64,000 nt of DNA from Akkermansiaceae bacterium. Lineage in GTDB: Bacteria; Verrucomicrobiota; Verrucomicrobiia; Verrucomicrobiales; Akkermansiaceae. Shown here one piece after another: positions 18,089 to 18,737 of this stretch. The position numbers were made by a program, and so were the translations under genes. Below the pieces are notes generated by a model. It searched no databases, was not told the DNA's origin, and worked only from the letters and a program-made list of their open reading frames with translations. The stretch is taken from assembly GCA_015062055.1 (NCBI GenBank), contig SUVK01000007.1, positions 1 through 64,000 on the forward strand, given 5' to 3'. The first letter of the stretch is position 1; each line of letters begins with the position of its first letter.

Positions 18089-18183
18089 ATCTACGGAGCC
18101 GCCAGGCTCCGTTCTTCTCTGAGCGCGATAGCGATTTCTTCTCTGCGGCGCAGCCGCTCTTCACTATCCGTCGATAGACGGAT

Positions 18184-18212
18184 TCTTCACTACGAGCGAT
18201 AGCGAGTATTAT
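18184..18212 (+). repeat. 29-bp perfect inverted repeat, left arm
   Basis: Reverse complement of 18597-18625. It starts at the stop codon of the four-helix-bundle gene. Confidence 0.85.
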
Positions 18213-18556
18213 TTCATCTCTCTTTGTTTTGCAGTATTAAGAGACCTTATTAGTAGAAACCTGATTTTGCTGCACATTTTTTCTATGGACTTTGCTTCGT
18301 CTTCTTTAACGGTTTCGGTTCTTACCAATAATTCAAGCCAATAGAAGGTTTCGTGGCATTCTTTGAGGGCAATTTGAAGTTTACAGATGAAATCTGCTTT
18401 ACTGTATCCATATTGGGCTTCTCGTATGTTAGCCCCGATACTGCACGCAGAACGCAGCATCTGGTTTTTGATATGAGCGCGATTATGAATGGAATCACAG
18501 AGTTTGATGACTTGAACAGAAAACTCAAGGCTCATTTCTTCTAACGTGCTTTTCAT
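18209..18556 (-). CDS. Four-helix bundle protein (S23 / IVS-encoded family)
   Basis: This 115-residue all-helical protein has the family signature: FSVQVIKLCDSI near the start, then NQMLRSACSIGANIREAQYG and a final helix with MCSKIRFLLIRSL. Relatives are encoded inside 23S rRNA intervening sequences, in diversity-generating retroelements (Avd) and as stand-alone genes of unknown function. A minus-strand promoter TTGAAT - 16 bp - TATCAT precedes the ATG. The stop TAA lies in the left arm of the 29-bp inverted repeat, so gene and repeats form one unit. There is no rRNA or reverse transcriptase nearby. Confidence 0.85.
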   Translation of the reverse strand: MKSTLEEMSLEFSVQVIKLCDSIHNRAHIKNQMLRSACSIGANIREAQYGYSKADFICKLQIALKECHETFYWLELLVRTETVKEDEAKSIEKMCSKIRFLLIRSLNTAKQREMK

Positions 18557-18596
18557 GTTTCCATGATAGCATTTTTTATTGAGGATTCAAGGTTTT

Positions 18597-18625
18597 ATAA
18601 TACTCGCTATCGCTCGTAGTGAAGA
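18597..18625 (+). repeat. 29-bp perfect inverted repeat, right arm
   Basis: Pairs exactly with 18184-18212. It lies about 40 bp upstream of the four-helix-bundle gene start. Confidence 0.85.
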
Positions 18626-18737
18626 GCGGCTGACGCCGCAGTGAAGAATCCGTCCGGCGACGGATAATGAAGAACGGCTATGCCGTAGAGAAGAGCTCAC
18701 TGTCGCTCGCAGAGGGAACGGAGCCGCAGGCTCCGTT

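Follow-up and report, generated by a model that had tools for sequence, protein, structure and literature searches.

S23 genes are common 'hypothetical' genes for which structures have been solved and on whose function, to our knowledge, there is no agreement. The S23-encoding intervening sequences (IVS) of 23S rRNA are selfish, patchily distributed insertions in which a long complementary stem holds the gene in its loop; in Coxiella the IVS is excised by RNase III and the S23 protein is apparently not made in vivo, and in Xanthomonas the protein has been reported as a toroidal homopentamer (PMC4990558). The resemblance of PF05635 to Avd of diversity-generating retroelements (DGRs), which acts in a complex of reverse transcriptase (RT) and RNA (DGR RNP 8ub7), has already been pointed out (PMC10053308). 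RAYT/REP systems (REPINs) consist of a single small gene within inverted arrays of its own repeats, accompanied by dispersed gene-less copies, and their palindromes bear a conserved GTAG/CGTC-type tetranucleotide tag (PMC3733652). Tandem heptamer repeats, often intergenic and in some cases in convergent pairs, are known in Calothrix, Xanthomonas and Nostoc (PMC4692102) and in Beggiatoaceae (PMC4679880), with no cause assigned to them.

The window analysed here is a 64,000-nucleotide stretch from an Akkermansiaceae bacterium, in which an intergenic cassette, flanked by the 3' ends of dus and comM, extends from 18093 to about 18737. Its S23 gene (18209..18556, minus strand; 115 aa) belongs to the S23 / four-helix-bundle family by sequence and by fold, with profile matches to TIGR02436 (E 6.6e-25) and PF05635 (E 4.3e-22) and a structural model (pLDDT 92.8) that matched the S23 structures 2rld and 2gsc. 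The model also matched Avd of a DGR (4dwl; TM-score about 0.82) and the DGR RNP 8ub7. No recombinase, nuclease or other catalytic domain was recognized in the protein. A possible sigma-70 promoter, TTGAAT-16-TATCAT (18563..18590, minus strand), lies just upstream of the S23 start within the element, and is a candidate by consensus match only, about one such match being expected by chance.

The gene is enclosed by a 29-nt perfect inverted repeat, as the initial annotation had reported, with the left copy at 18184..18212 (plus strand), overlapping the S23 3' end by 4 nt, and the right copy at 18597..18625 (minus strand). The left copy is the innermost part of a left arm (18093..18212) with perfect stems at 18093-18112, 18145-18157 and 18166-18183; the right arm (18597..18737) is a mirror-image hairpin array with perfect stems at 18626-18639, 18648-18665, 18674-18686 and 18717-18737. 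The matching terminal hairpins described in the same annotation were likewise observed, the left one, ACGGAGCC-GCCA-GGCTCCGT (18093..18112), adjoining the dus stop codon and the right one, AACGGAGCC-GCA-GGCTCCGTT (18717..18737), adjoining the comM stop codon, each at an outer edge of the cassette. Further symmetry was seen in an outer inverted pair, 18117-18194 / 18637-18714, which is 81% complementary over 78 nt. Seven perfect hairpins (stem 5–9 bp, loop 3–4) were counted in the two arms, where 300 dinucleotide shuffles gave 1.7 on average and never more than 5, and the hairpins are joined by TTCTTCACT/TTCTTCTCT-like spacers, present as TTCTTCTCT/TTCTTCACT in the left arm. The outer arrays of spaced hairpins that had been claimed are therefore present, with the qualification that some hairpins are imperfect, for example those of the CGAGCGATAGCG type. 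As for the further claim that modules are shuffled between the sides, the same stems occur on the left and the right with different loops, and the modules are not freely shuffled.

Single-strand folding of the cassette gave z-scores of -13 and -15 relative to shuffles (either strand), values that partly repeat the inverted-repeat information, and the predicted fold was one long stem with the S23 gene in its loop. When the left and right arms of the same element were compared, loops differed at 25% of positions, stems at 7.5%, and the remaining positions, spacers included, at 12%. Of the double changes in stems, 17 kept pairing and 4 lost it, about 3 doubles being expected if changes were independent. 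Selection on the stems, or templated correction or repair of the palindromes, could each give this pattern. Three other identities for the cassette were rejected: a known RNA family, as Rfam found only tRNAs and no rRNA in the window; a defence system, as there was no PADLOC match; and a phage origin, as PHROG matches were weak and the two S23-bearing phage records were without arms.

The search for an empty dus-comM site in relatives that the initial annotation had proposed was successful in the sister genome G002, the closest genome searched (Dus 91% identical), where the cassette is absent and dus and comM almost abut. The junction reads ATCT-G-TCAATCCC in G002 and ATCT-[ACGGAGCC...GGCTCCGT]-TTTAATCCC in the window, and this empty site sets the outer edge at the left terminal hairpin (18093..18112). 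No target-site duplication was visible at this one diverged empty site. Because a different gene lies 3' of dus in other relatives, insertion and loss are not polarizable by outgroup; a precise, scarless loss of the cassette seems less likely. A different, S23-less element with inverted AGAATGC-type heptamers was found 3' of dus in G017 and G020 and is missing from that position in G005, G009, G010 and G011. Presence and absence at orthologous sites, as for a mobile element, was thus found both for dus-comM and for the region 3' of dus. The dus-comM cassette is the only S23 cassette for which a clean empty site was found: none was seen for the C55 copy, where gene content differs in G002, and at the C71 and C58 sites S23 is present in G002 also.

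Other copies, for which a search had likewise been suggested, were found in the source genome: its S23 loci number five, of which two are degraded. Inverted flanks are present at each of the five, and the motif is different every time: TTCTTCACT-hairpins in the window, TTTTTCACCA-hairpins at C55, ATTTACA x4 as a 31-nt perfect inverted repeat at C71, and weak GGATTTT-type and GTACAAA-type motifs at C58 and C62, respectively. A genome-wide spread of arrays at identical sites and with no tie to S23, which the initial annotation had named as evidence against a link, was not seen, TTCTTC-spaced hairpin arrays being confined to three loci, namely the window and two loci without S23. L014 (C16:1-330) and L015 (C55:41740-41940) are S23-less hairpin arrays with TTCTTCA spacers and a short shared non-coding core; both are located at the end of a contig, and one follows closely on the 3' side of a 5S rRNA gene. 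Given this location, assembly breaks may conceal further copies. The closest S23 relatives of the window protein in the named collection were all from Akkermansia MAGs, which marks the source of the window as a MAG of Akkermansia type.

To determine how general the arrangement is, the left flank was compared with the reverse-complemented right flank for S23 genes from 59 related genomes and from plasmids, using a score threshold of >= 14, windows shifted by 800 bases as controls and the RAYT cassettes of the genus as a positive control. Inverted arms were found at 101/115 S23 loci and in 0/168 shifted controls. About 12% of the sampled S23 loci were without a clear inverted arm, and at some loci the low inverted score reflected arms in direct rather than inverted arrays. 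The best lag was 7 in 65 of the 72 arms with a clear internal period, compared to 1/11 in controls. Identity in heptamer-class arms was 0.73, 0.71 and 0.67 at lags 7, 14 and 21, where the lag-7 value belonged to the selection of the class and lags 14 and 21 were not used directly. In a held-out sample of 30 S23 loci, taken from 30 additional genomes of Verrucomicrobiota, inverted arms were present at 22/30 loci vs 2/60 controls, with a best lag of 7 (17 loci) or 8 (5 loci).

Plasmid-borne S23 genes with mirror-image arms were found in Cyanobacteriota, Bacteroidota, Spirochaetota, Bacillota and Chloroflexota. Such arms were present on all plasmid S23 genes of Nostocales and other Cyanobacteriota, Bernardetia, Treponema, Monoglobus and Chlorohelix; in Nostoc sp. 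C052, an AATTCGT array forms a 39-nt perfect inverted repeat. The weakest plasmid cases (L195, L196, L199 and L200) scored 16.5 to 18, with controls mostly < 13; the two high controls were L186, with 34.5 from a shifted window that runs into the arms of the element itself, and L201, with 16.5. Mirror-image repeat arms enclose S23 genes in at least six bacterial phyla, and except in one S23 clade of Akkermansia, the arms are usually heptamers in tandem array. The tight link between S23 and palindromes that was first noticed in the window is therefore real and far more general, although outside that clade it involves heptamers and not hairpins.

Many S23 copies can occur in one genome, with a patchy distribution (e.g. 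15 in G009 and 10 in G035). No preference for convergent gene pairs was found in the sample, 79/172 neighbour ends facing the cassette by their 3' end in a rough longest-ORF estimate. Heptamer-armed S23 genes lie between cas2 and cas1 on plasmids of Nostoc sp. TCL26-01 and Anabaena cylindrica PCC 7122 (L180 and L192), and a heptamer-armed S23 element adjoins cas1 in Pseudanabaena (L194). In defence-like operons (L195, L197, L196 and L183), S23 was located between DUF1156 and Swt1-HEPN genes in both Gloeocapsa and Chlorohelix, and elsewhere between helicase and N-6 methylase genes or between HsdS and HsdR.

Hairpin-spacer arms fell within a single clade (support 100/99) of a maximum-likelihood tree built from 113 S23 proteins; in the sample, this clade was confined to the window's genus and surrounded by heptamer arms. 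The arm class was assigned partly by eye from the flanks, and two rows labelled as heptamer lay inside the hairpin clade; on reading, the flanks of one (L060) were hairpins with TTTTCAT spacers and in those of the other (L041) a hairpin was surrounded by repeats of TTACCT. At other sites, the S23 genes most closely related to that of the window have TTCTTCAC-type spacers. Within the hairpin clade the spacer follows the S23 protein, indicating that the S23 gene and its arms travel together. Across non-orthologous sites, motif similarity and S23 protein identity were also correlated (Mantel r 0.47, p<=0.0005), a correlation that is compatible with specific recognition of the arms by S23 and that simple co-inheritance would be expected to produce as well. 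Within an element, both arms have a common motif, which differs between elements of the same genome.

As judged from substitution patterns, S23 is under purifying selection: dN/dS was mostly 0.02–0.15 among pairs, with 0.40 in one very close pair on few changes. The near-invariant residues are mostly polar (Q32, R35, S39, N43, S52, D55, K59, E66 and E69) and may form a functional site. Their spacing is that of one face each of helices 2 and 3, and the set Q32, R35, S39, N43, K59, E66 and E69 goes beyond the needs of a plain scaffold.

S23-less arrays with the same spacers are common, and tandem composites were seen at L055 and L058. Dissimilar S23 elements occupied the same intergenic site in L048/L063 vs L088 (S23 31% identical) and in L004 vs L072 (46% identical). 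In two relatives (L002 and L067), the elements 3' of polA have S23 genes that are 64% identical and heptamers that differ, and each element's two arms match each other. This suggests either that both arms change in concert or that the site has received more than one insertion.

Taken as a whole, the cassette is probably a compact, selfish element that was inserted between the facing 3' ends of dus and comM, with S23 as its sole gene and the arms as its cis-acting sites. The architecture and its generality, the empty site in a relative, the copies at multiple sites, the co-segregation of arm type with S23 clade and the selection on S23 are directly supported. Both arms would be inverted arrays of an element-specific motif, heptamers in the usual case and hairpins with a fixed spacer in the window's S23 clade. 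S23 would assemble as an Avd-like pentameric ring that recognizes the repeated motif on single-stranded nucleic acid, either ssDNA at forks or RNA, and draws the two arms together. Host replication or repair might then copy or anneal the element into new intergenic sites, and S23-less arrays with the same motif would be its non-autonomous derivatives.

The initial annotation had suggested that the S23 protein binds or mobilizes the hairpins in the way that REP-type transposases act on REPs, and the cassette does share with RAYT/REP both the inverted palindromic repeats round a gene and the dispersed gene-less copies. The parallel is limited to architecture and does not extend to mechanism, as no Y1/HUH transposase is encoded, the sole gene product has an S23/Avd-like bundle fold, and the RAYTs of the genus have a distinct REP. 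The same layout would fit a RAYT-type (Y1/HUH) or other transposase that moves the palindromic arrays in trans with S23 as a passenger, as would the presence of Y1_Tnp in 44/59 relatives and of a RAYT cassette inside an S23-type array cluster in G022, which indicates that both systems can meet. Such movement in trans is nevertheless quite unlikely, since the source genome has no Y1_Tnp / RAYT-type transposase match, most of the 35 genus RAYT loci read (L219–L253) are flanked by a distinct three-hairpin REP without S23 spacers, heptamer arms do not consist of palindromic hairpins, selection acts on S23, and the type of arm goes with the S23 clade. RAYT was accordingly rejected as the mobilizer. 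The REP units of the genus RAYTs are inverted, of the GAACCC...GGGTGACAG type, and constitute a separate palindromic system; in L237 (G035), an S23-less element with inverted ACAAAGG-type repeats occupies the upstream flank of a RAYT gene. An RT acting in trans was also rejected as the mover because several S23-rich genomes, including G009 and G035, have no RT match; G000 has one RT, on another contig. S23 shares the four-helix fold of Avd, but neither an RT nor a template or variable repeat of a DGR was noticed at the S23 loci that were read. Judging by gene content, RT and RAYT transposases are dispensable for the presence of S23 elements, and with both set aside, S23 itself together with host functions would be the simplest agents.

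The long stem with S23 in its loop, formed from bordering complementary sequences as in the Coxiella IVS excised by RNase III (PMC4990558), raises an IVS-like alternative in which the stem is an RNase III substrate that makes the insertion harmless, S23 binds RNA and any movement is incidental. The Avd-like fold of S23 and the S23-less array just 3' of a 5S rRNA gene agree with such a role. However, the cassettes read are intergenic, that of the window lying between dus and comM and not inside a 16S or 23S rRNA gene, they have repeat-array arms and are numerous per genome, and the strong purifying selection on S23 contrasts with the Coxiella protein that is apparently unmade in vivo (PMC4990558). 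This alternative is unlikely as a full account, although it and the selfish-element model are not mutually exclusive. The arms might instead have come first, as arrays arising by slippage and repair between which S23, as a host gene, settled or regulates its neighbours; heptamer arrays are known without S23 (PMC4692102, PMC4679880), and S23-less arrays are common here. This order of events is improbable given that shifted control windows almost never have such arms, that the motif, while common to both arms of an element, varies among the elements of one genome, and that the elements are patchily distributed with many copies per genome. Opposite cassette orientations at one site in relatives (L045, L046 and L073 vs L061 and L071, with S23 up to 96% identical) would be expected of an invertible switch, in which recombination between the arms flips S23 and a host function of S23 is phase-varied. 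Such flips are also expected from plain recombination between inverted arms, and most same-site cassette pairs keep one orientation. Moreover, the promoter-like site lies inside the element and would flip with the gene, so inversion would leave expression unswitched, and a switch is very improbable.

In our reading, the cassette, as a single-gene selfish element with its own inverted repeats, belongs to neither the RAYT/REP nor the IVS group, although it would operate much as they do. The heptamers of Calothrix, Nostoc, Xanthomonas and Beggiatoaceae resemble the heptamer arms in being tandem and were published without any S23 link (PMC4692102, PMC4679880), and one S23 gene of Verrucomicrobiota (L283) has the Xanthomonas unit GGGAATC in its arms. 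No paper that connects S23 with such repeats was found in the literature searched, in which few subscription journals and preprints are represented. The occurrence of mirror-image arms around S23 genes in at least six phyla points to S23 elements as an apparently undescribed, widespread kind of small mobile DNA. A more tentative proposal is that S23 elements across bacteria form a mobile-element class of their own, so far undescribed, with S23 as the only gene and a new route of movement, in which the Avd-like pentamer may read tandem heptamers, perhaps one per subunit, or, in a single clade, spacer-hairpins on single strands, and of which the cyanobacterial, Xanthomonas and Beggiatoaceae heptamers may be footprints.

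Binding of S23 to its own arms would provide one testable answer both to the function of S23 and to the origin of the ownerless heptamer repeats. S23 elements would also be a candidate parent form of the rRNA intervening sequences. If movement were shown, they would represent a mobile element with a single protein that lacks any known catalytic domain.
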